Assembly (NCBI GenBank): GCA_001563335.1
Contig: LRSL01000044.1
Location: 1 to 56,662 of the forward strand
Origin: Candidatus Thorarchaeota archaeon SMTZ1-45
GTDB taxonomy: Archaea > Asgardarchaeota > Thorarchaeia > Thorarchaeales > Thorarchaeaceae
Length of the DNA stretch: 56,662 bases
Direction: 5' to 3'
This document shows, piece by piece, positions 3,084-28,860 of this stretch. Position numbers and translations under genes: made by a program. Below the pieces are notes generated by a model. The model saw only the letters and a program-made list of their open reading frames with translations, ran no database searches and was not told the DNA's origin. Position 1 is the stretch's first letter. Each line of letters opens with the position of its first letter.

Positions 3084-4630
3084 TGTTACTTCAACTAGAC
3101 CAAATAGCAGATGCACTTCGTGGAATCTTTCTACCTATCAGAAATTTCCTGCTTTCTATTATCCCTCCAGGTTGGATTATGTCTCTTCCAGCTCTGACCT
3201 TGATCCTCTTTGCAATCATTGCCCTAGTTGTAGGTATGCGGTATAATCCCCTTGGTCTGAGTTTTATTGGTATTTTGCTTGCTGGAATTCAAATGGTGAT
3301 TCTCGATCCTAATGACCCAGCACTCACAGCCCTTATTGGTGAAGGTGGTGTATCATTTGGACAGTTTGTTCGAGACCCTATGGCTGATTTCTTCATCTAT
3401 ATTATACTCATTGTTGCCTTTCTTGTTCTAATGTCTTCCACCCTCTATGGCGGTGATAAAGGGCCGTACAATTTCCTACTACTGATCTCATTCGCAGGTG
3501 CAATCTGGGTAGTGATGGCAACTGATCTTATTGGTCTATTTCTAGCATGGGAACTCATGTCAACACCAACCTACATACTTGTTGCTCTAGGACCTGCTAG
3601 AGAAGCAATTGATGGTGCTACCAAGTACTTTGTGATGGGACTTCTAGCTACTATGTTGATGATTTTTGGAATTGCACTTGTATATGGAGTCATTGGTACA
3701 ACTAATCTTGTTGAAGTTGCTTCAGCTGTTGATAATATTTGGAATATGTTCGCAACAACCCCCAATGCTGCATATACAATTGTATTAGCTGTGGTTCTTT
3801 TCGTAGTTTCCTTTGGTTTCAAGGTAGGAGTGTTTCCTGGCTGGCAATGGGTGCCAGATGCTTATGCTAGTGCTGATGGAAGTGTAACTGCATACCTTGC
3901 AGGAGGTTCCAAGAAAACAGGTGTAGGCGCATTGATGAGGATTCTTGTTATAGGGTTCGTCGCAGCACAAACCCAATGGACGTTTCTTATTGTAGGAGTT
4001 GCCATTCTTACAATGGTCATTGGTAATGTCTTAGCACTTGCGCAAAGGGATATCATGCGGATGTTGGCTTACAGTAGTGTTGCGATGATGGGCTATCTCT
4101 TCATAGGAGTTGCAGCAGCTAATCCAGACATTCCAATCGCCTATAGTCTGGGTATCGGGGCTGCACTCTTCCATGCTTTTACTCATGCATTAATGAAGAC
4201 CTCCGCCTTCATCCTTGTATGGGCACTCTCAATCAGATTGGCAAAGAGAATAACCTACGACGACCTTGCAGGACTCAGTAAACGTGCACCTGTGGCTGCC
4301 GGACTATTCGCAATCCTTATGCTATCACTTGCTGGAATGCCCTTAACAGTTGGATTCTGGTCCAAGTTAGTTCTTTTCCAAAGTGCTGTCGTTGCAGGAA
4401 TGTGGTGGCTCGCGCTCATTGGATTGCTTAACTCGGTATTCTCGCTCGGTTACTACTTGCGAGTCCTGAGGTATTCATATATGATGGATGCTCCTGACGA
4501 CTCGAGAATCAACTTGCCATCTATCCCCTTTGCCGCAGTTGTGATTTGTGTTGTCGCAGTGATTGCGCTCTTTATCTTCCCGTATCTCATTCTAGACTAC
4601 GCATTTGCAGCAGTGCCCTTATTGCCTTAA
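3083..4630 (+). CDS. nuoN: Complex I-type subunit N (NuoN)
   Basis: Third antiporter-like membrane subunit of the same complex; 515 residues from the ATG at 3083. I chose this start because it overlaps the nuoM stop (TGATG). A longer open frame from 3014 would run far into nuoM and adds a non-family N-terminus. Family motifs include FKVGVFPGWQWVPDAY near 3820-3865, followed by the YLAGGSKKTG segment, and an AGMPLTVGFWSK motif near 4330-4370. About 14 hydrophobic helices are predicted. It is the last gene of the operon: the next gene is convergent and begins 25 bases later. L-M-N order at the 3' end is the usual order of nuo/fpo operons. Confidence 0.94.
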   Translation: MLLQLDQIADALRGIFLPIRNFLLSIIPPGWIMSLPALTLILFAIIALVVGMRYNPLGLSFIGILLAGIQMVILDPNDPALTALIGEGGVSFGQFVRDPMADFFIYIILIVAFLVLMSSTLYGGDKGPYNFLLLISFAGAIWVVMATDLIGLFLAWELMSTPTYILVALGPAREAIDGATKYFVMGLLATMLMIFGIALVYGVIGTTNLVEVASAVDNIWNMFATTPNAAYTIVLAVVLFVVSFGFKVGVFPGWQWVPDAYASADGSVTAYLAGGSKKTGVGALMRILVIGFVAAQTQWTFLIVGVAILTMVIGNVLALAQRDIMRMLAYSSVAMMGYLFIGVAAANPDIPIAYSLGIGAALFHAFTHALMKTSAFILVWALSIRLAKRITYDDLAGLSKRAPVAAGLFAILMLSLAGMPLTVGFWSKLVLFQSAVVAGMWWLALIGLLNSVFSLGYYLRVLRYSYMMDAPDDSRINLPSIPFAAVVICVVAVIALFIFPYLILDYAFAAVPLLP

Positions 4631-8544: not shown

Positions 8545-9446
8545 AACTTGACCGCCTCTTCATCAGAGGTATTTAGAAGCTTCCTAACCCTTGATATTAC
8601 TAGTGCTGAAACTGACTTTCGAGCCTCATCATAACTTGTAAATGGAATTATTGATACATCTGTTTTCTCTGCTTCAGACATCATATACTCCTGTATTAGT
8701 CGCGTAGCTTCGAACTCTCTGTTTCTAACAATAGTATCATCAGTAACTGTTCTGAGTTTTCCAATAGCATGTTTGCTAGCAAACATCGCCTTATGTGTTT
8801 CAAAATCTGGATTAATTAGGACTTCAATAACACCTGGACATAGACCTTGAATTGAACCAGGTTGAATATGAACCCCCTCCACAACAGCAATAGCGCCTTC
8901 AGAAACTATTCTCTTCGTCATTGTTTCAACATGAGGTGTTATGATTTCACACTGTGCCAAAAACCCTCTTACTATTGGTTCCAAATTAGGGGATCCTGAT
9001 TGTCGATGGATATATGCTTGATATGTGTGGCAAAATAACTCTGGATATTTCTCCTCACTAAATATTCCACGAAGAACCTGACGAACTGAGTCAGTGCTAA
9101 TGAATCTGGTAGCAGTGAGATCGTGCATTAGTTCAAGTGCTATCAAAGACTTGCCTGTTGCTGACGCTCCTTCAATGACAACCACAAGTGCTGGTATTTC
9201 TATTGAATCTCCTCGAAGACTCTCGTATCTTGTTAGGATATCAAAATTAGTACGAATCGAAGGCTGGTATGCACCTAGAGATTCGCGGATTTGATTGAGG
9301 AGCTCGCCCTCTGTTTCAATCTGTTGAATCTTTGAATCGTGCATGATTCTTGAAATATCATTATCTGATAGACCACTCAATCTAAGCCGTCCCTTGATCG
9401 TAAAGATTGGAAAAGGAACCATATTATCTCCGATTCGTAGTTTCAT
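8541..9446 (-). CDS. 2-phosphoglycerate kinase-family P-loop protein
   Basis: The 301-residue protein resembles archaeal 2-phosphoglycerate kinase, which makes 2,3-bisphosphoglycerate on the way to cyclic 2,3-diphosphoglycerate in some methanogens. It has a short N-terminal ATP-cone-like helical region (about 1-75), a P-loop GASATGKS at 93-100, and the family signatures ISTDSVRQVLRG and VEGVHIQPGSI. No cyclic-2,3-diphosphoglycerate synthetase is adjacent, so the substrate here is uncertain; the P-loop fold is also shared with zeta-toxin-like kinases. Its TGA stop overlaps the ATG of the downstream acdA (ATGA), and 25 bases separate it from the upstream OB-fold gene. Confidence 0.78.
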   Translation of the reverse strand: MKLRIGDNMVPFPIFTIKGRLRLSGLSDNDISRIMHDSKIQQIETEGELLNQIRESLGAYQPSIRTNFDILTRYESLRGDSIEIPALVVVIEGASATGKSLIALELMHDLTATRFISTDSVRQVLRGIFSEEKYPELFCHTYQAYIHRQSGSPNLEPIVRGFLAQCEIITPHVETMTKRIVSEGAIAVVEGVHIQPGSIQGLCPGVIEVLINPDFETHKAMFASKHAIGKLRTVTDDTIVRNREFEATRLIQEYMMSEAEKTDVSIIPFTSYDEARKSVSALVISRVRKLLNTSDEEAVKL

Positions 9447-9471
9447 AGCAAAGTTTCATGCCAGAACAACC

Positions 9472-10020
9472 TCAAAAGCCCTTCCGTGAACAGTAACCTT
9501 TCGTTTCTCTTCCCGGAGTTCCCTGAAAAGAACGACCTGTTGGAGACCTCTTTTTTCTCTTGCGTATAGGTCTGCCCATAAATGGCCTGCTCATATCAAT
9601 AGATCCATCAACTTGAATAATACTTGAAGAGGCTTCCCGGATAATGCCCCACCTACCTTTTGCCAGACTCATACTCTCATCATAGATGCTGATGTATCCA
9701 TTCAGCAACTCGTATGACTTTCCAATATCTATTTCATCTACATCCTCATTCCACAAATTTAGACTGATTATTGCAGATTTATCACCAACTATGCATTCTC
9801 TGATGAGATGACGTTTCCCACTAGCGTTTGCTGTGACGAGTCGTGTTTGTCCTTTCTTGATCACACTGAATCTCACATTTACTGATTTTGATTCGACTGT
9901 CAGCCTGGAAATTGGAGTCCAATCCTCTTTTCGATTTTCTCTTGATTCTTCTGCATCCTGCAAGTAAACGCATCCGAATATGGGTGTCGATGAATAATAA
10001 AGAACTCCACACTTTTTCAT
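9472..10020 (-). CDS. OB-fold nucleic-acid-binding protein (SSB/SOSS-B-like)
   Basis: 182 residues. The central part (about residues 35-140) reads as an RPA/SOSS-B type OB fold: ISRLTVESKSVNVRFSV, then an IVGDKSAIISLNLWNED strand-loop and a GYISIYDESMSLAKGRWG segment. The C-terminal tail of about 40 residues is rich in Arg, Lys, Gly and Ser, as in many single-strand DNA or RNA binders. The start ATG at 10020 overlaps the aminotransferase stop (ATGA). The first 30 residues look atypical, so a later non-ATG start is possible. Its presence in an operon of metabolic enzymes is unexplained. Confidence 0.72.
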   Translation of the reverse strand: MKKCGVLYYSSTPIFGCVYLQDAEESRENRKEDWTPISRLTVESKSVNVRFSVIKKGQTRLVTANASGKRHLIRECIVGDKSAIISLNLWNEDVDEIDIGKSYELLNGYISIYDESMSLAKGRWGIIREASSSIIQVDGSIDMSRPFMGRPIRKRKKRSPTGRSFQGTPGRETKGYCSRKGF

Positions 10021-11105
10021 GAGTGAATCTCTATCAGAGCTTTTCGTAGCTGTTCAAGACCCATTATTAGTTCCTCATGTTCACCACCAAACCCAAGCCG
10101 GAAATGCCCATCAAGCTCCATTCGAGAACCTGGGACTGTAAAAGTTCTGTATTTCTTCACAAGAAGCTCACAGAGTTCATCAGTACTCCCACCTCGCTTT
10201 AGTCTTGGAGCACAAACAACTCCACTTTTTGGTTCAACCCACTCAAGCCAATCTTGAGACCCCATCCATTCCTCTACAACCTTATAATTTGAGAGCACTG
10301 CTTTCCTGATTACTGGGAGAATCTCGTGTCTTTTATGAAGCACCTCTTTTGCAATTACTTCTCCAAGTGACGAGTTGCATATTGTTACCTGTTCTCTTAC
10401 AGCTCTTATTGCTTCGACAATAGGTCTGTCTGCAACAGCCCAACCAATGCGAATACCTGGCAGTCCCCATGTTTTAGACATGCTTGTCAAGCTAATTGCG
10501 ATGGGACTCAGTGACGCAGCGAGAGGTGGTGGTGGATCGAACATGAGGTCTCTGTACGTTTCATCGACCATAAGATGTGCACCTGCTTCCTCTGCTATTT
10601 CGATTGCCTCTTTGAGCTCATCTTTGGATATTACAGAACCTGTTGGATTGTTTGGGTGAGTCAGAGTAATCAGCTTGGTATTGGGTTTGACCAGCTTTCT
10701 CAGTTTATCCATCCTAGGTCTAAATCCATCATTCCAATCGAGTTTGAGGAGAGTTAAGTTTCTTCTAAGAGATCGTGCCACCTGATAGAGTGAGGGATAT
10801 GTTGGATGTTCAACAATTATATTATCTTTAGGTCCAACTAAATGGGCAATAATCGCAAAGTTTGCTTCACTCGCTCCAGTTGTCACTGCTACATTGTCAA
10901 GAGAATTACCTTTGTATTGTTTTGCAATTTCCTTTCTTAAACTTGGATGACCTAAATGGTACCCATATCGTAATTCAACTTCATTAAGGTCTATTTCAAG
11001 TTCTTTAACTGTCAAGAACTTTGTACCGCTCTCACCAATATCATAATCTACCTCGAACTGATGGTCGTCAAACCAAATTTCCAACGGCATTCTCTCAAAT
11101 GTCAA
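10017..11105 (-). CDS. PLP-dependent class I/II aminotransferase
   Basis: Fold-type I aminotransferase of 362 residues. The PLP lysine is in SMSKTWGLPGIRIGW, the pyridine-binding aspartate/tyrosine is in MVDETYRDL and the LTHPNNPTG loop is intact. The N-terminus is slightly short, as in archaeal aminotransferases that also include capreomycidine-synthase-like members, so the amino donor is not predictable. It is the first gene of the minus-strand operon leading to acdA. The product 2-oxo acids could feed ferredoxin-dependent oxidation and then the ADP-forming ligase, but that link is inferred from gene order. The start at 11105 gives MTFERM; the ATG six codons in is an alternative. Confidence 0.88.
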   Translation of the reverse strand: MTFERMPLEIWFDDHQFEVDYDIGESGTKFLTVKELEIDLNEVELRYGYHLGHPSLRKEIAKQYKGNSLDNVAVTTGASEANFAIIAHLVGPKDNIIVEHPTYPSLYQVARSLRRNLTLLKLDWNDGFRPRMDKLRKLVKPNTKLITLTHPNNPTGSVISKDELKEAIEIAEEAGAHLMVDETYRDLMFDPPPPLAASLSPIAISLTSMSKTWGLPGIRIGWAVADRPIVEAIRAVREQVTICNSSLGEVIAKEVLHKRHEILPVIRKAVLSNYKVVEEWMGSQDWLEWVEPKSGVVCAPRLKRGGSTDELCELLVKKYRTFTVPGSRMELDGHFRLGFGGEHEELIMGLEQLRKALIEIHS

Positions 11106-18869: not shown

Positions 18870-19049
18870 TTTCTAACCACTCCTAATTGATAACGCATTT
18901 CTCCCTCTATTCTTGAGGTTGGAATTTTTGGCGTTTAGGCTATAATGATTAATTCGCACCCTTTTATTGATTCTGGGCAACAAATCTACCGATAGGCTAA
19001 AGTCGAGGAAATGCAATCGGAAAAGTTGTATTTTCGGGGTTTGAACACA

Positions 19050-20411
19050 ATGGTTGAGCAGATTGCTGTGATTGGTTGCGGAGCAGCTGGTGCTACTGCA
19101 GCACTGCAAGCACGGAAATTCAATAGAAGCGTTGAGATATCAATATTCAATTCAGAGCCTTACTCACAATATTCTAGGTGTGGCTTACCATATACCATCT
19201 CTGGAAAAGTTGGTGCATTCGAAGACCTAGTTCTGATGCCTCCAGATAACTGGGGCGCCTTGAAGATTGACACCAAGCTCGGTGTTACAGTCACAGATAT
19301 CGATCATAAGTCTAAGGAGATTATTTTTTCAGGTGAAGGTGGTGCGAGTAGACAAAATTATGATGCCTTGATTTTCGCTACTGGAGCAGAGAATGCTGAT
19401 CCTCCTATCAAAGGACTTGATAAGAAACGAGTCTATGGTCTACGAACACTTGATGACGCAAAAGCGCTCTCTTTAGAGGTTGATATGGCTAAAACCGCTG
19501 TTATTATTGGGGGCGGTCTTGTCGGAATGGAGGCTGCCGAAGCTTTTCATGAACGAGGGCTTGATGTTACAGTTGTTGAGTTCCTCCCCCATATACTACT
19601 AGCAATGGTTGATCCAGATATGGCTGCAATTGTTGAGGAACATTGTATCGAACATGGTCTGAAGATTCTAAATAATACTGCAGCTCAACAGATTACTGGC
19701 AAGGAAACTCCAGAAACAGTTGTGGTCAAGAATCGTGAAACTGAACAAGTATCAGAGATACCTGCGGATTTTGTTGTTGTTGCCACAGGAGTACGACCAG
19801 TCACTGGGCTTGCTGAGAAAATGGGTGTGAAGATTGGAACAACTCGAGGGATTATGACCAATGAAAAGATGATGACAAATATTGACCAAGTCTATGCGTG
19901 CGGAGACTGCGCAGAGAATTTCGAGTTCATAACACGCAAACCAATGGCAGGAGGCTTAGGCACAGTTGCAGTCAGACAAGCTCGAGTTTCGGGGATTAAT
20001 GCAGCTGGTGGTGATGTTACATTCCCAGGTATCGTTGGAGCAAAGGTCACAAAGCTCTTTGGTCTTGAGATTGCTAGCACTGGATTCACAGAAGATATGG
20101 CAAATCGGTTTGAGATTCCCATAGTTAAAGGGTCAATGAAGGGCAGCACAAAACCTCCTTACTATATCGGAGGCAAAGAGCTTAAGCTTAAGACTTTCTA
20201 TAATAAAGAAACAGGCAAGCTCGTGGGTGGTCAACTTGTTGGAGAGGAGGATGCAGCAATGCGTCTTAATGTTTTAACATTAGGAATACAACAAGATATC
20301 GACGCAGCTGAACTATTTGACTTTGAGAATTGCTATGCTCCAGCAATCTGCGATACATGGGATCCATTGGTTTCATCTGCAGATGCAGCTCGTCGAAGAC
20401 TCAAGATATAG
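19050..20411 (+). CDS. FAD/NAD(P)-dependent oxidoreductase, CoA-disulfide reductase / NADH oxidase family
   Basis: Flavoenzyme of the single-cysteine branch of pyridine-nucleotide-disulfide oxidoreductases. The FAD loop GCGAAG is at residues 9-14, the redox cysteine is Cys44 in SRCGLPY (matching Cys43 of CoA-disulfide reductase), the second dinucleotide loop is GGGLVGMEAAEA, and the FAD-contacting YACGDCAE motif is near 19893-19917. I start at ATG 19050 because the family begins directly with the FAD strand; ATG 19011 adds 13 non-family residues but has a GAGG nearby. Activity could be CoA-disulfide, polysulfide or oxygen reduction. Its 3' end overlaps the convergent gene at 20401 by 11 bases. 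Confidence 0.88.
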   Translation: MVEQIAVIGCGAAGATAALQARKFNRSVEISIFNSEPYSQYSRCGLPYTISGKVGAFEDLVLMPPDNWGALKIDTKLGVTVTDIDHKSKEIIFSGEGGASRQNYDALIFATGAENADPPIKGLDKKRVYGLRTLDDAKALSLEVDMAKTAVIIGGGLVGMEAAEAFHERGLDVTVVEFLPHILLAMVDPDMAAIVEEHCIEHGLKILNNTAAQQITGKETPETVVVKNRETEQVSEIPADFVVVATGVRPVTGLAEKMGVKIGTTRGIMTNEKMMTNIDQVYACGDCAENFEFITRKPMAGGLGTVAVRQARVSGINAAGGDVTFPGIVGAKVTKLFGLEIASTGFTEDMANRFEIPIVKGSMKGSTKPPYYIGGKELKLKTFYNKETGKLVGGQLVGEEDAAMRLNVLTLGIQQDIDAAELFDFENCYAPAICDTWDPLVSSADAARRRLKI

Positions 20412-20889
20412 CTCGCTCGTTTGATATTGTTTTTATGTTATTCAATGCAAACTGAAAAGAGCTTAGCTGAATTGGTGAACTTGCGACAAGTAAAATTTTG
20501 TTAAGATCACAAACTGTCTTCGAATGACTCGCAATTGCTCTTACAATTTCCTCAGCAACTTCCCAGCTTGGAATTCTTGAAACCTCAAGCCCCATAGTAA
20601 AGAATCCAACCTTTCTGGCCTTTAAGCCAATTGCTGTTTCCATAGCCCATAAAGCTGTAGAGTAAATGACTGCGCGACGGTCTGGATTCTTCAAAGAGAT
20701 GCCTGGCCAGTAAAGGACTTCTTTAGCGTTACTGTTCTCTCTAACAGTTATGGTTGCTTTTTCTCTTTCGAGTTCAATATCTTTCGCTTTTACTACTACA
20801 TCAATGTCTGAATCGTCTTTATACCCAAGCTCAACTTTGACAATGAGGTTTCCTAGAGACCATCCTTCCAAGACTATTATTCCTCGCAT
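20401..20889 (-). CDS. Degenerate macrodomain-like protein
   Basis: 162 residues with no direct family motif, but the pattern follows the macrodomain encoded just upstream. A segment VKVELGYKDDSDIDVVVKA lines up with VKTYIGDITDLAVDAIANA. Later, VGFFTMG matches LAFPAIG, the helix EVAEEIVRAIASH matches EQSAKAIIEGIIHY, and KILLVAS matches EITLVGF. The ADP-ribose contacts are gone: the NAAN tetrad is replaced and the GAGVGG loop reads GLEVSR. It may be a non-catalytic partner or have a new ligand. The start ATG 20889 lies inside the upstream macrodomain gene (13-base overlap), so the two are translationally coupled. The macrodomain assignment is my alignment by eye, not a search. Confidence 0.65.
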   Translation of the reverse strand: MRGIIVLEGWSLGNLIVKVELGYKDDSDIDVVVKAKDIELEREKATITVRENSNAKEVLYWPGISLKNPDRRAVIYSTALWAMETAIGLKARKVGFFTMGLEVSRIPSWEVAEEIVRAIASHSKTVCDLNKILLVASSPIQLSSFQFALNNIKTISNERAIS

Positions 20890-21404
20890 TCATTAATTGC
20901 ATTATTGAAACAGTCACAAGTATATTCGTTAAAACCTACAAGGGTAATTTCCTTCACTGAACCCGGTCTACGAACATAGTGGATAATTCCTTCAATGATT
21001 GCTTTTGCAGATTGTTCCTCAGTTAAACCGCCTACTCCAGCACCAATTGCGGGAAATGCTAATGAAGTCAGATTATGGTTTGATGCTATGCTGAGAGCAG
21101 CTTGAACTGATGACAACACTTTCCAATAGGTTGCTCTCCCACCTGGAGGCATTCCGGCACAATGAATCACATATTTTGATGGAAGTGCCCCAGCTGTGGT
21201 CATTACTGCCTCACCTGGTCTGATTGGACCCATAGATAGAGCTTCATCTTCTATCTGCTGACCACCTTTTGATTTGATGGCTCCTGCAACACCTGACCCC
21301 ATCCAGAGATCAGAATTAGCGGCATTGGCAATAGCATCAACGGCTAGGTCAGTAATATCCCCAATGTAGGTTTTGACTAAAATATCACCTACTTTTTTCT
21401 CCAT
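20877..21404 (-). CDS. Macrodomain protein (ADP-ribose / O-acetyl-ADP-ribose binding or hydrolase)
   Basis: 175 residues from ATG 21404. Macrodomain motifs are GDITDLAVDAIANAAN (residues 15-30), the glycine-rich GSGVAGAI loop (36-43), a VIHCAGMP strand and the phosphate loop AIGAGVGG (near 21038-21061). These bind ADP-ribose and in some members hydrolyse O-acetyl-ADP-ribose or ADP-ribosyl-protein. The frame is open up to 21485, but that extension is not family-like. A TATA element on this strand (CATATATC near 21433-21440) sits about 30 bases before ATG 21404, giving a nearly leaderless mRNA, so I use the shorter form. It is coupled to the macrodomain-like gene downstream and divergent from the Nudix gene. 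Confidence 0.88.
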   Translation of the reverse strand: MEKKVGDILVKTYIGDITDLAVDAIANAANSDLWMGSGVAGAIKSKGGQQIEDEALSMGPIRPGEAVMTTAGALPSKYVIHCAGMPPGGRATYWKVLSSVQAALSIASNHNLTSLAFPAIGAGVGGLTEEQSAKAIIEGIIHYVRRPGSVKEITLVGFNEYTCDCFNNAINECEE

Positions 21405-21432
21405 GAACCACAACCCCATTTGGAGTATAAGA

Positions 21433-21480
21433 TATATGGAATCATTTTCGTAAAAGGTTGTTGTCCCACAACCTTTATGC
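21433..21480. promoter_or_regulatory. Divergent promoters with a perfect 9-bp palindromic operator
   Basis: AAAGGTTGT (21453-21461), a 6-base spacer and ACAACCTTT (21468-21476) form a perfect inverted repeat. On the minus strand a TATA-like CATATATC lies at 21433-21440, ahead of the macrodomain. On the plus strand TTTATGCTT begins at 21474, about 28 bases ahead of the Nudix ATG 21502. The palindrome sits upstream of one TATA and runs into the other, so one bound regulator could control both genes. The regulator is unknown. Confidence 0.6.
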
Positions 21481-21501
21481 TTCATATTCCTTCATTTTCT
21501 G

Positions 21502-22092
21502 ATGGCGAGTCTTCTGAACGATATCAATAATGATGAGTTGGTAACTCTAATAGAGAAATATGGCCAACCTAAGGCAAATGAGTTTACCACAGATTTTCTT
21601 GATTTTGAGTGCGCCCTCGTGAAACGTACAGAGTCAAAGGGCCGACTGCATGATATTACGTGCTTCATTCGACAAGATGATGGAAATTATGTAGTAATTC
21701 AGAAACCACAATACGCAAGAACAGGAATCTATAGGGCTCCATCTGGAGGTGCATCTATCGGTGAATCTCTCGAAAATGCTGCTATCCGAGAGATGCATGA
21801 AGAAACTGGTTTAACAATTCAACTGACCCATTTTGTTTTAGACTTACGACTTAATGTTGTCTGCAAAGATCGTACAATTCCTTGGAGGTCTTTTGTATTT
21901 CTCGCAAAGCCAATAGACGGTGAAATGAGACCAGTAGATACGAGAGAGATCTTTGATGTAACTACAATGACCCGTGAACAACTAGAGGGAAATGTGACAA
22001 AGCTCATGGAAGACTCAGGATGGGGTGGATTTAAGTATCGCGCTTTCTTAACACGTGAATTCTTTAAACGACTTGATGAGCTGAATATCTGA
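21502..22092 (+). CDS. Nudix hydrolase
   Basis: 196 residues with a perfect Nudix box: Gly82-x5-Glu88-x7-Arg96-Glu97-x2-Glu100-Glu101-x-Gly103, the metal and pyrophosphate site. The family splits nucleoside diphosphates linked to another group, such as ADP-ribose, NADH or Ap4A. The exact substrate cannot be read from the box. Divergent gene order with a macrodomain under a shared palindrome favours an ADP-ribose-type substrate, but this is inference. The plus-strand TATA at about 21474 places transcription almost on the ATG, so the mRNA is probably leaderless. The 40-residue N-terminal helical extension before the Nudix core is not typical. Confidence 0.9.
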   Translation: MASLLNDINNDELVTLIEKYGQPKANEFTTDFLDFECALVKRTESKGRLHDITCFIRQDDGNYVVIQKPQYARTGIYRAPSGGASIGESLENAAIREMHEETGLTIQLTHFVLDLRLNVVCKDRTIPWRSFVFLAKPIDGEMRPVDTREIFDVTTMTREQLEGNVTKLMEDSGWGGFKYRAFLTREFFKRLDELNI

Positions 22093-22339: not shown

Positions 22340-22942
22340 CTAATCACTAGAAAGTTTAGTGATTAACTCCTCGCAGAATTGTTCTACTATCAGGGTTACC
22401 CTATCTTTACTTTCTTCTGTGCCAAAGAGCGAAGTCAGCAGATTGAGCAGAGCCAGATTATGCAACATCGAAACAGAAAATTCATTCTTGGAGTAGAAGT
22501 CAGAGATTCGATCATCTACTATTTTAGCAGCATCATCTCTTCCAAGACGCTGTATCGCTTCATTTCTGATCTCATACATACATGCTTCGAACTCTCTTGT
22601 CTGAAGAGATTGTCTAATTGGTCCAATCAGGAAATTTGCAGATAGCTCATCAGTGAGATTGTGACTTCCGAGTTCACGCACACTATCATTGAATTGTAGA
22701 AGAACTGGTTCAACCTCAAATGGTATTTTCTTAGCTATTTCTTGGAGAAATAAGCGAAATTCTTTCCTACGAATCAAGTGAAGGTGGCGTTTGAATTCAT
22801 CTTCAAAAGCGGCTACTACAGGACCAATTCCCTTTATTGATAAGCGGTGTTTCTTGTCACGACTGTATAAAACACCTTCCTCTTCAGAGTAGAACTGCAA
22901 GTGAACCAGATATTTCACCATGAGTTCTAATTGGTCTGTCAT
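22340..22942 (-). CDS. Hypothetical helical protein
   Basis: 200 residues, not recognised. It is soluble and mostly helical, with mixed charge; no signal peptide, metal motif or nucleotide-binding motif is seen. The start ATG 22942 has AGAG nearby and the frame is full length. A perfect inverted repeat TAATCACTA / TAGTGATTA (22341-22365) spans its last codons and stop. The next gene downstream is the Nudix gene, convergent, 247 bases away. That gap contains a T9 run on this strand near 22185-22193 that may be the transcript end, and nothing else I can name. Confidence 0.6.
   Translation of the reverse strand: MTDQLELMVKYLVHLQFYSEEEGVLYSRDKKHRLSIKGIGPVVAAFEDEFKRHLHLIRRKEFRLFLQEIAKKIPFEVEPVLLQFNDSVRELGSHNLTDELSANFLIGPIRQSLQTREFEACMYEIRNEAIQRLGRDDAAKIVDDRISDFYSKNEFSVSMLHNLALLNLLTSLFGTEESKDRVTLIVEQFCEELITKLSSD
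22341..22365 (-). terminator. Inverted repeat across the stop codon
   Basis: TAATCACTA, 7-base loop, TAGTGATTA: a perfect 9-bp stem in the last eight codons and stop of the 200-residue gene. No T-run follows directly, so termination here is uncertain. It could instead protect the transcript end; a T9 run lies about 150 bases further on. Confidence 0.3.
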
Positions 22943-23049: not shown

Positions 23050-24096
23050 TTATCGCATTGTCAACGCCATTACAGCTTTTTGAGCATGTAGTCGGTTTTC
23101 AGCCTGGTCAAAGGCTATTGATTGAGGTCCATCAATTACCGAGTTAGAAACCTCAAATCCTCGATCACAAGGTAAGCAGTGCATGTATGCTGCCTTTGGT
23201 CCTGCGATTTTCATCATGTCATCATCGCAAATCCAATGCTTGTTCTCATCGAACACTTCCTGTGACTTTTCAAGTTCAGGCTTGTCATTAAATGGCGGAA
23301 TGAATTCCTTGCAAGTCCAAGCTTTTGGATAGACAACATGAGCTCCCTCGAAGGCTTCCTCCATATCGTTCACGATTTCGAAGCTTGATTCATTCTCTTC
23401 TGAAAACTCTCTGCACTTATCGAGGATTCTGTCATCAAGCTCCATTCCTTTTGGATGCGCCAGGACAGTGTCAGCACCCATTTTTGTAGCTGCGATTATT
23501 GCACTTTGAGGGACCGCAAGTGGTTTGTGAACGGATGGAGAGTATGCCCAACTCATGACGAACTTGACACCCTTAAAAGTACCAAATTTCTCCTTGATAG
23601 TCATAATATCAGCTAATCCCTGACAGGGATGGTAAATATCATCCTCCATGTTAATAATTGGAATATGACTCCAGTGGGCAAAGTTATTGATAATCTCGTT
23701 CGCACGACCATAAATCCAGCCAACAGGGTCTCCATAGCATCTGATTGCGATTCCATGACCCATTCTTGCAAGAACTCGCGCTACATCTGAAACACGTTCC
23801 GTCGAATAGGCTTTCTCGTCACCTTCAAGAGCTGGAGCATATATCTTACCGGGGTCAAGAAAGTGTGCATGTCCACCTAACTGCGTCATTCCTGCTTCGA
23901 ATGAGTTCCGAGTTCGCAAGCTCTGGTTATAGAAAATCATGAACAATGTCTTTGCATCGAGAAGCTTATGAGGTTCACCCATCGCGAATTTACGCTTCAG
24001 ATCAAATGCAACCTCAAGGAGGGTCTCGATCTCCTCCTTCGTATAATCGAGTAAGGTTATGAAGTCCTTACCACGAAAGGTTTCCGTCTTAACCAT
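23050..24096 (-). CDS. Ornithine/aspartate-carbamoyltransferase superfamily enzyme, YgeW/N-acylornithine-like (copy 1)
   Basis: 348 residues. The carbamoyl-phosphate site SLRTR is at 59-63, HPCQGLAD is in the middle and HCLP near the C-terminus, so the transferase chemistry appears intact. The canonical ornithine loop (SMG) is not seen. Instead VVYPKAW, the form found in knotted transcarbamylases (YgeW and N-acetyl- or N-succinylornithine types), suggests another amine acceptor. The length is slightly above catabolic OTC. No arginine-pathway gene is near. A paralogue of similar length lies at 34635-35666. Start ATG 24096 with GAGGT upstream. Substrate unknown. Confidence 0.82.
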   Translation of the reverse strand: MVKTETFRGKDFITLLDYTKEEIETLLEVAFDLKRKFAMGEPHKLLDAKTLFMIFYNQSLRTRNSFEAGMTQLGGHAHFLDPGKIYAPALEGDEKAYSTERVSDVARVLARMGHGIAIRCYGDPVGWIYGRANEIINNFAHWSHIPIINMEDDIYHPCQGLADIMTIKEKFGTFKGVKFVMSWAYSPSVHKPLAVPQSAIIAATKMGADTVLAHPKGMELDDRILDKCREFSEENESSFEIVNDMEEAFEGAHVVYPKAWTCKEFIPPFNDKPELEKSQEVFDENKHWICDDDMMKIAGPKAAYMHCLPCDRGFEVSNSVIDGPQSIAFDQAENRLHAQKAVMALTMR

Positions 24097-26190: not shown

Positions 26191-26277
26191 CAGAACTTTG
26201 ATTTTCAATTTCTCCGAATGCTTAAAGGGAGCATTGAATATCTGATTCTAATTGAATTAACGAGAGTTGGAGAGAAG

Positions 26278-28860
26278 ATGAAAAGAAAGGTTGTGAACCT
26301 CGCTCTCTCATTCATCGGCCCAATAGCACTGATTGTTATTTTGACAATGCCTATTGGCCCACTGACTGGAGGGCTTGGTATCATCCAACCCATTGGTGGA
26401 ATTTTCGACAATGGTGCTCCGGAGCCTGGGGATCAAAGAATTGCTCTCCCTGGACTCAATGCCGAGGTTGAAGTGATAATCGACCATTTGGGAGTTCCCC
26501 ACATCTATGCTGAATCTACCTATGATGCCATGATGGCACTTGGGTATATGCATGCAAAAGATAGGCTGTTTCAAGTTGTGATGCAAAATGCCTTTGCAGC
26601 GGGACGAATCAGCGAGATAGTGGGTAGTGCGAGAGCGGGTGCTGTGAGCTCAGATATGTACTTTCGAGCAATAGGTCTGGCACGTTCAGCACAGGACACA
26701 CTTGACTGGTTTGAGGCAAATGCGGCTTCTGACCCAGACATTCAAGAAGGACTAGATAACATCTATGCGGAAGTTGAAGGCGCGAATGCATACATTAACT
26801 CCCTGACAAGTGCGACAATGCCAATTGAGTTTAAGATCCTAGGATATACCCCAGAACTTTGGACACCTGTCGACTGTTTCATCAATGCTAAAATGCTAGC
26901 TTGGGGTCTTGCTGGAGGATTGGCAGACTTCAATCGGCAATGGATTCGACAAACACTCGAGAATGATACCCTATACAATGATCTATTTCCTGATGTTATG
27001 CCCTACACAGTTCCGATAATACAGGAGCAGGTCAACCTCAGTCTTGCTGAGTATCCACTTGGTCCTGGTAAGATACCAGTAGCAGCTATTCCTGAACAGT
27101 CCTCTAGCATCACATTGGCTGAGGAAGCAATAATCTCTCAAGACAAGTTGGAGGCGGTGATCAGGATGATGACTGAGGTCGTCAAGCCATTTGGCGATAT
27201 GGAATTCGTTGGTAGCAATAATTGGGCAATCAACGGTTCTAAGTCATCGACAGGAATGCCCATTGTGGCCGGGGACCCACATCTCGAACATCAAGCACCA
27301 TCAGTCTGGTATGAAGCGCACATCGTTGTACCAGGGATTCTTGATGTGACTGGAACAACATTTCCAGGACTTCCCGCAGTTCTCATCGGTCACAATGACC
27401 ACATAGCATATAGCTTCACCAATGTTGGTGCTGATGTCAACGATGTCTTCGTTGAGCAACTTAATCCTGCGAATTCTGACCAATACATGTACAATGGAGA
27501 GTGGAGAAACTTCACCATCCATCAAGAGAACATTCACACAAAGGAGGGTGATGTCATTCCATTCACCGTTAAGGAATCAATCCACGGACCTTGCATCGAT
27601 TCTGTTTGGAACACCTACGGTTCAGATGCTGAATCGGAGCCAAACTTAGCGATGAACTGGACGATATCAGGTGTTACACATGAGATGATTGCAACAGCTC
27701 TACTGATGAAAGCTGATAATATCTCTGATGCTATAGATGCATTATACTGGTGGGACACAGCGGCTCAGAATTGTGTGCTTGGTGATGACTCTGGTAATAT
27801 CGGTATGCTAGTGGTTGGGCGTTTTCCAATACGAGCTGGATATACTGGTGAATACCCTGTGACTGCTCTCAATGACTCGGTTGGAATGGTGAGTTATGTC
27901 CCATATGCGCACAACCCTCGAGAAGTGAATCCCTCTCGAGGATTTGTCTCGTCAGCCAACCAGCGTACAATCGCTCCAGGAAATTATGCCTATGACATAC
28001 TTGGTCCACAAGCTGATGGATATCGAGGTAGGCGGATTTATCATCTCTTGGACGTGAATGATGACATTTCAGTAGATGACATGAAACGATTTCAGGCTGA
28101 TGTTGTAGAGGTCCGAGCAGAAGTCATAGTTCCCTACGTTGTTGATGCTTGGGATGCTGCGGGTGATGGAAATACAACCATTGCCAATGCAGTTGACCTG
28201 CTCCGAGTCTGGGAATATGACATGGAACCTGACTTAGTTGCGCCTACTATCTGGATGTATCTCATTAATGCATTGCACTATGAAATATTCGACGAGATTA
28301 GGACCATTGATAGTTCGGTTCCACTGTCGAGGAATCCAATCTTGGAGGAGCTCATTGTGACTGACAATGTTTGGTACTTAGATGACCATACTTCAGTGCC
28401 TGTTGAATCTCGTGACGAGATTCTTGTACGAGCATTAATTTCTGCTATCAATCAACTCACAGCAGAGTGGATTGATGAGCCTAATTGGGAATATGGAAAT
28501 CGTCATGTCATTGAAATTGACCATCTGGCTGGTTTCACTACTATTGGAGGCGAGAGACCTCTCCGTGGTCAAAAAACACTCAATGTGGCGGGAGGTTGGA
28601 GACCTGGGAGTGGTCCATCAACAAGACTGATTGCTGATATGAGTAACATCCAAATGTCGTACATGGCTTACCCAGGTGGACAGAGTGGGAATATCTTTAG
28701 TCCTCACTTTGCTGACATCTTTGAAATCTGGTACTCATTTGACGAGGTCACTGAGCATCATGGATATCATATTCTGTACTTCTACTCGACAGCAGATGCG
28801 TTTAGAGCTGCAGACACAGATGATACTCTCATCGAGAGAACCATCACCTTTGTACCATAG
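26278..28860 (+). CDS. Penicillin acylase-family Ntn-hydrolase (S45), secreted or membrane anchored
   Basis: 860 residues from ATG 26278, chosen for the GGAG five bases upstream; ATG 26218 adds 20 residues without a ribosome site. A hydrophobic signal or anchor lies at about 7-30. The alpha region carries the FGDMEFVGSNNWAI junction. Ser313 in GSNNWAI is the expected N-terminal nucleophile after autocatalytic cleavage, leaving a beta chain of about 548 residues, with GDPHLEHQAPSVWYE following as in penicillin amidases and acyl-homoserine-lactone acylases. It hydrolyses amide bonds of small acylated compounds outside the membrane; the natural substrate is unknown. The next gene follows 11 bases later and is probably in the same transcript. 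Confidence 0.9.
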   Translation: MKRKVVNLALSFIGPIALIVILTMPIGPLTGGLGIIQPIGGIFDNGAPEPGDQRIALPGLNAEVEVIIDHLGVPHIYAESTYDAMMALGYMHAKDRLFQVVMQNAFAAGRISEIVGSARAGAVSSDMYFRAIGLARSAQDTLDWFEANAASDPDIQEGLDNIYAEVEGANAYINSLTSATMPIEFKILGYTPELWTPVDCFINAKMLAWGLAGGLADFNRQWIRQTLENDTLYNDLFPDVMPYTVPIIQEQVNLSLAEYPLGPGKIPVAAIPEQSSSITLAEEAIISQDKLEAVIRMMTEVVKPFGDMEFVGSNNWAINGSKSSTGMPIVAGDPHLEHQAPSVWYEAHIVVPGILDVTGTTFPGLPAVLIGHNDHIAYSFTNVGADVNDVFVEQLNPANSDQYMYNGEWRNFTIHQENIHTKEGDVIPFTVKESIHGPCIDSVWNTYGSDAESEPNLAMNWTISGVTHEMIATALLMKADNISDAIDALYWWDTAAQNCVLGDDSGNIGMLVVGRFPIRAGYTGEYPVTALNDSVGMVSYVPYAHNPREVNPSRGFVSSANQRTIAPGNYAYDILGPQADGYRGRRIYHLLDVNDDISVDDMKRFQADVVEVRAEVIVPYVVDAWDAAGDGNTTIANAVDLLRVWEYDMEPDLVAPTIWMYLINALHYEIFDEIRTIDSSVPLSRNPILEELIVTDNVWYLDDHTSVPVESRDEILVRALISAINQLTAEWIDEPNWEYGNRHVIEIDHLAGFTTIGGERPLRGQKTLNVAGGWRPGSGPSTRLIADMSNIQMSYMAYPGGQSGNIFSPHFADIFEIWYSFDEVTEHHGYHILYFYSTADAFRAADTDDTLIERTITFVP

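Follow-up and report, generated by a model that had tools for sequence, protein, structure and literature searches.

A predicted macrodomain-fold protein lacking ADP-ribose motifs, encoded beside a canonical macrodomain and a divergent Nudix hydrolase in one Asgard family

Background and Closest Described Systems

Asgard archaea are the group nearest to eukaryotes, and to our knowledge ADP-ribose chemistry seems little described in them. Here we analyzed a 56,662-base stretch of DNA from Candidatus Thorarchaeota archaeon SMTZ1-45 (GenBank assembly GCA_001563335.1, contig LRSL01000044.1), the whole of which is referred to below as the window. The subject is a small gene at 20401–20889, here called the twin, together with the canonical macrodomain gene directly upstream of it and a divergently transcribed Nudix hydrolase gene. 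Macrodomains are among the main readers and erasers of ADP-ribose. One report states that macrodomains liberate ADP-ribose, with O-acetyl-ADP-ribose, ADP-ribose-1''-phosphate, and conjugates as substrates, and that the target of Nudix domains is the diphosphate at the center of NAD or ADP-ribose (PMC9503650).

Several described systems are close to this locus. Among the stand-alone macrodomains of PF01661 (for example TTHA0132, 2dx6), the protein encoded at 20877–21404 is an ordinary member. The twin shares the predicted fold and is remotely homologous, but NAAN and the GAGVGG phosphate loop are missing from it, and W61, E102, P107, and W109 are kept instead. Macrodomain–Nudix fusions from metagenomes (for example P0170, 311 residues) carry the same two domains in one polypeptide; their macrodomain halves are 43–49% identical to that of the window over about half of the joined query, and the Pfam listing of P0170 contains no twin domain. 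SirTM-type sirtuin–macrodomain operons, described as probably reversing ADP-ribosylation, also contain a macrodomain (PMC7050489), whereas the cassette in the window has no sirtuin.

Another likeness is to the SUD modules of SARS coronavirus nsp3, which are encoded near a canonical macrodomain. They are described as having a macrodomain fold that does not bind ADP-ribose and in which the triple glycine is not conserved, two losses that the authors connect (PMC2674928). They differ from the twin in being viral polyprotein domains that bind G-quadruplexes (PMC2674928), and their likeness to the twin does not come from sequence comparison. With SUD, a macrodomain remodelled so that ADP-ribose binding is lost is already known in kind. 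Our literature search found no paper describing this cassette and none combining macrodomain, Asgard, and ADP-ribosylation; the sole paper found with “macro domain” and Thorarchaeota concerns, by its title, a phage genome.

The twin travels with a macrodomain and a divergent Nudix hydrolase that probably recycle ADP-ribose species. Tentatively, we take it to be an accessory protein, in which what was once the ADP-ribose cleft would hold a different ligand or partner. A conserved cassette of this kind, in which a remodelled macrodomain is strictly kept, would illustrate how the fold passes from ADP-ribose to another ligand, and it points out which residues of that protein to examine.

Fold and Conserved Residues of the Twin

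The twin lies on the reverse strand and encodes 162 residues from an ATG at 20889. This protein matched no Pfam family at E up to 1, the window's copy lying below Pfam Macro's own cut-off (22 bits), and no NCBIfam model above its cut-off. The two weak NCBIfam matches, both far below the cut-off, were to a transporter ATPase tail (E 0.0025), which we regard as chance, and to an O-acetyl-ADP-ribose deacetylase (E 0.037). The commonest Pfam family among its relatives was Macro, matched weakly (28 of the 55 members, best E 0.0021), and the twin copy in genome G024 reached 25.2 bits, exceeding the cut-off. A comparison with hhalign gave homology between the twin and macrodomains at a probability of 97.45, and the fold prediction agreed with a structure comparison on a macrodomain fold, as a prediction only. 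Judged by sequence, the twin is a homologue of the macrodomain, and it is predicted to keep the macrodomain fold. The initial annotation had described the second gene as a macrodomain relative with NAAN and GAGVGG replaced, and this description agrees with our results, including the fold.

The replacements are accompanied by a set of conserved residues specific to the twin. At the first N of NAAN, the twin has K34 in 54 of 55 aligned rows (T in one), and the GAGVGG loop of the macrodomain reads G-L-E-V-S-R in the window's copy. Within this replaced loop, E102 and R105 were present in 55 of 55 rows. Outside it, W61, P62, R71, R72, T98, P107, W109, P139, and Q141 were likewise present in every row; in total, 28 positions were at least 98% conserved over the 55 rows. 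We also made a wider comparison of 33 genomic loci and the window, in which pairwise identity fell to 24%. Here, W61, E102, P107, and W109 were present in 34 of 34 sequences, P62, R71, R72, and T98 in 33 of 34 each, and Q141 in 33 of 34, the match in locus L059 stopping short of this residue. The word “degenerate,” used at first for this partner, is wrong, because the twin has its own strictly kept residues.

Neither NAAN, nor the GSGV helix, nor the GxGVGG loop is kept in the window's copy, and the helix carrying GSGV is absent altogether. Ordinary ADP-ribose binding by the twin is unlikely, because a glutamate would occupy the site at which the phosphates of ADP-ribose are usually held by backbone amides.

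A 13-base overlap between the twin and the macrodomain gene had been reported. It holds if the ATG at 20889 is taken as the start of the twin, but is replaced by a 5-base gap if the start is the TTG at 20871, which gives 156 residues. A start six residues downstream of the window's ATG is common among the relatives. The spacing between the two genes ranged from −8 to +6 in 24 relative pairs, five further pairs with an unclear start being excluded, so the window's −13 is extreme; a 5-base gap was found in nine of the 24 pairs (spacing read by hand).

The Canonical Macrodomain and the Nudix Hydrolase

The macrodomain gene (20877–21404, reverse strand) encodes 175 residues from MEKK, with NAAN, GSGV, and GAGVGG all kept, and its open frame extends upstream to an ATG at 21485. 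The protein scored 94.9 bits against Pfam Macro (PF01661, cut-off 22), which bears out its assignment as canonical, and no other match to this family was found in its genome at E up to 0.001. Its closest solved relative by sequence is Thermus TTHA0132 (2dx6, E 4.5e-28). Over 27 sequences, NAAN was invariant and GAGVGG was conserved to at least 90% per column.

The Nudix gene (21502–22092, forward strand, 196 residues) is divergent, with 97 bases between the macrodomain ATG at 21404 and its own ATG at 21502. Its complete box, GGASIGE-SLENAAI-REMHEETGL, fits the Nudix consensus GX5EX7REUXEEXGU letter for letter, and the protein scored 55.1 bits against Pfam NUDIX. The perfect box, the divergent start, and the coordinates, strands, and order of the three genes are thus as initially annotated. 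No curated ADP-ribose diphosphatase model in NCBIfam exceeded its cut-off for this protein, and its nearest solved relative was found at E 1.4e-5. ADP-ribose would be a candidate substrate of this Nudix enzyme.

Distribution and Gene Order

The distribution of the three genes was examined in 227 genomes of the phylum, 47 in the window's family (one Asgard family, mostly Thorarchaeota) and 180 outside it. The twin was found in 40 of the 47 family genomes. Outside the family, five of 180 genomes gave a weak twin match (best E 9.3e-9), and all five matches were the canonical macrodomain of that genome. A contig scan of 84,980 species with two peptide patterns detected 32 loci: 28 titled Thorarchaeota, two Lokiarchaeota, and two plain archaeon. 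The canonical macrodomain was present in 177 of the 227 genomes and is far wider in distribution than the twin, which therefore appears to have been added by this lineage itself.

Within the family, the macrodomain was detected in 36 of 47 genomes (12 genera), and by coordinates the twin lies directly downstream of it in 36 of 36. A Nudix orthologue was present in 40 of 47. Twin and Nudix occurred together in 39 genomes, in 37 of which, all but G024 and G223, they share a contig and are at most 4 kb apart; the twin occurred without Nudix only in G222 (67% complete), Nudix without the twin only in G034, and neither was found in six. No macrodomain match was found in the assemblies of four of the 40 twin genomes (G008, G021, G033, and G219); in each of these the twin is the immediate neighbor of Nudix, within about 300 bases. 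In G008, short macrodomain remnants persist between the two genes, so the macrodomain has been lost there and its absence is not due to a missing contig; other gene absences may stem from incomplete assemblies. In locus L039, the macrodomain is down to short remnants (about 3753–3948), and the twin and Nudix frames are open. Genome G036 has two twin copies (L053 and L059), one with the macrodomain and Nudix and the other with only a disulfide oxidoreductase gene. The dependence is one-way: the macrodomain never occurred without the twin, whereas the twin sometimes occurred without the macrodomain.

In the 33 fetched loci, the twin was an open frame in all 33, and the counts by blastp were 29 for the macrodomain, 31 for Nudix, and 30 for the disulfide oxidoreductase. 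The macrodomain, twin, and Nudix were together in 28. These loci and the 37 of 39 genomes given above indicate that the three-gene order noted in the window is kept in relatives. The gene families found in the largest number of genera were the twin, macrodomain, Nudix, and oxidoreductase (12 or 13 of 13 genera).

Proposed Function

The trio had been proposed to form one pathway, and an ADP-ribose pathway for the cassette is plausible, because macrodomain–Nudix fusions exist (18 among the 120 matches listed of 229) and a sirtuin is present in 44 of the 47 family genomes. The window's genome has two sirtuin matches, on contigs other than that of the cassette. Sirtuin-made O-acetyl-ADP-ribose is a substrate of several macrodomain enzymes, according to one source (PMC7050489). 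KptA was found in only four of 47 genomes, and comparison of the two counts makes a sirtuin-derived species the likelier source. A tRNA-repair product was considered as the substrate and was rejected on the KptA count. In the proposed path, sirtuins would make O-acetyl-ADP-ribose or ADP-ribosyl marks, the macrodomain would release ADP-ribose, and the Nudix enzyme would cleave it to AMP and ribose-5-phosphate. The twin would support this path, by sensing or delivery, independently and not as a fixed subunit of the macrodomain. Possible, although we would not count on it, is a more specific origin and role: the twin would represent a new protein family, not described before, that was derived from the macrodomain by duplication in one Asgard lineage. 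In it, loss of the NAAN loop and exchange of the glycine phosphate loop for one containing an invariant glutamate would have created a new site for a ligand, and the twin would be a dedicated sensor or carrier of a product of the neighboring macrodomain and Nudix enzymes.

Several observations weigh against an accessory role in an ADP-ribose path. The link of the twin to ADP-ribose comes from its neighbors, and in family f9, outside the window's family, the Nudix orthologue and the macrodomain are on different contigs in eight of eight genomes; their linkage is therefore confined to one lineage. In P0170, the Nudix half is similar to that of the window only close to the box (38% over 58 residues), so ADP-ribose is no more than a candidate substrate. 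In the more distant twin copies, K34 and R105 are not constant (28 and 26 of the 34 sequences in the wider comparison, respectively), and a glycine-rich insert at the place of the GSGV helix in some relatives (for example P0075) may leave phosphate binding possible there. The conserved residues were not significantly enriched in the cleft loops, taken as segments of our own choosing (12/27 versus 33/116, Fisher p 0.11), and the idea that the old cleft houses a new binding site is thus no more than a suggestion. Finally, the disulfide oxidoreductase neighbors the twin in 30 of 33 loci and is almost as constant a neighbor as Nudix; twin distances correlate best with it (0.645), and the proposed path assigns it no role.

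The last correlation also speaks for a twin that is an enzyme or binder in its own right, with an unrelated ligand, and that adjoins the macrodomain only through tandem duplication. This explanation, which we consider doubtful, accounts for the four genomes that keep the twin without a macrodomain, for the extra copy in G036 that lacks both macrodomain and Nudix, and for the replacement of the ADP-ribose motifs in the aligned rows by a separate conserved set. Leftover adjacency, however, would not lead one to expect a macrodomain that never occurs without the twin in 36 genomes of 12 genera, or a Nudix kept in 39 of 40 twin genomes. The same constancy of the macrodomain–twin pair, with its strict adjacency, short spacing, and likely single transcript, would fit an obligate two-subunit sensor or hydrolase, and a two-subunit macrodomain sensor had been suggested in the initial annotation. 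We consider an obligate complex improbable, and that suggestion is not supported: the twin is without the macrodomain in four of 40 genomes and stands beside Nudix in all four, and no macrodomain–twin fusion was found among the 120 matches listed of 229. In a mirror-tree comparison, the correlation of distances was no higher for macrodomain and twin (0.555) than for macrodomain and Nudix (0.559), and no signal was specific to the macrodomain and twin. A model of the joined macrodomain–twin frame (locus L056), with a short linker, 18 alignment rows, and no control, had a predicted template modeling score (pTM) of 0.64 and a predicted local distance difference test score (pLDDT) of 85.7, and gave no confident relative placement. 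A structure search with this joined model returned mostly single macrodomains on the twin half and the PARP14 tandem at a root-mean-square deviation of 17, and therefore says nothing about macrodomain–twin pairing.

A very unlikely alternative is that the twin regulates the cassette by binding a palindrome between the macrodomain and Nudix genes, or RNA, as SUD modules bind G-quadruplexes and not ADP-ribose. The divergent promoter region shared by these two genes contains a perfect 9-base inverted repeat, AAAGGTTGT and ACAACCTTT separated by 6 bases (21453–21476, no strand assigned), and the exact palindrome was not found again anywhere in the genome assembly. An element of 30 bases surrounding it was recognizable in 21 of 28 intergenic regions including that of the window (shuffle p < 0.01), with scores that are partly circular because the consensus was derived from the same sequences; in 20 of these 21 regions it lies 20–26 bases before the Nudix start. 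A macrodomain fold that binds nucleic acid and not ADP-ribose also has a precedent in SUD (PMC2674928). However, the palindrome may be either an operator or two facing core promoters, and a scan for further sites gave 17 at up to three mismatches versus 41 for the reversed control, so there is no palindrome regulon. Most members of the twin family are acidic (median isoelectric point 5.1, range 4.3–9.6, n = 33), with a value of 7.8 for the window's copy, and the Pfam and NCBIfam scans, the only searches made, detected no DNA-binding motif in the twin. That the twin is a decaying duplicate without function is scarcely credible. It is the fastest changing of the genes compared (mean pairwise identity 0.44 versus 0.60, 0.63, and 0.73 for its neighbors), but its frame is open in 33 of 33 loci, 28 positions are at least 98% conserved, and it is kept in 40 of 47 genomes; a pseudogene is ruled out by this strict conservation.

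Neighboring Genes

The disulfide oxidoreductase discussed above is an FAD/NAD(P)H-dependent disulfide-oxidoreductase-like gene of the coenzyme A-disulfide-reductase family (19011–20411, forward strand), convergent with the twin. A protein of 200 residues with only a weak ZapA match is encoded at 22340–22942 and lies near the cassette in several relatives. Further along the window, 23050–24096 encodes a carbamoyltransferase (288.3 against a cut-off of 288 for the NCBIfam N-acetylornithine carbamoyltransferase model), and 26218–28860 encodes a large protein of the penicillin-amidase family (579.7 bits). In locus L056, a TFIIB-like gene with a zinc ribbon recognized by eye was found at 9284–10330, and its cluster has members from 10 genera, in 12 of the 33 loci fetched.
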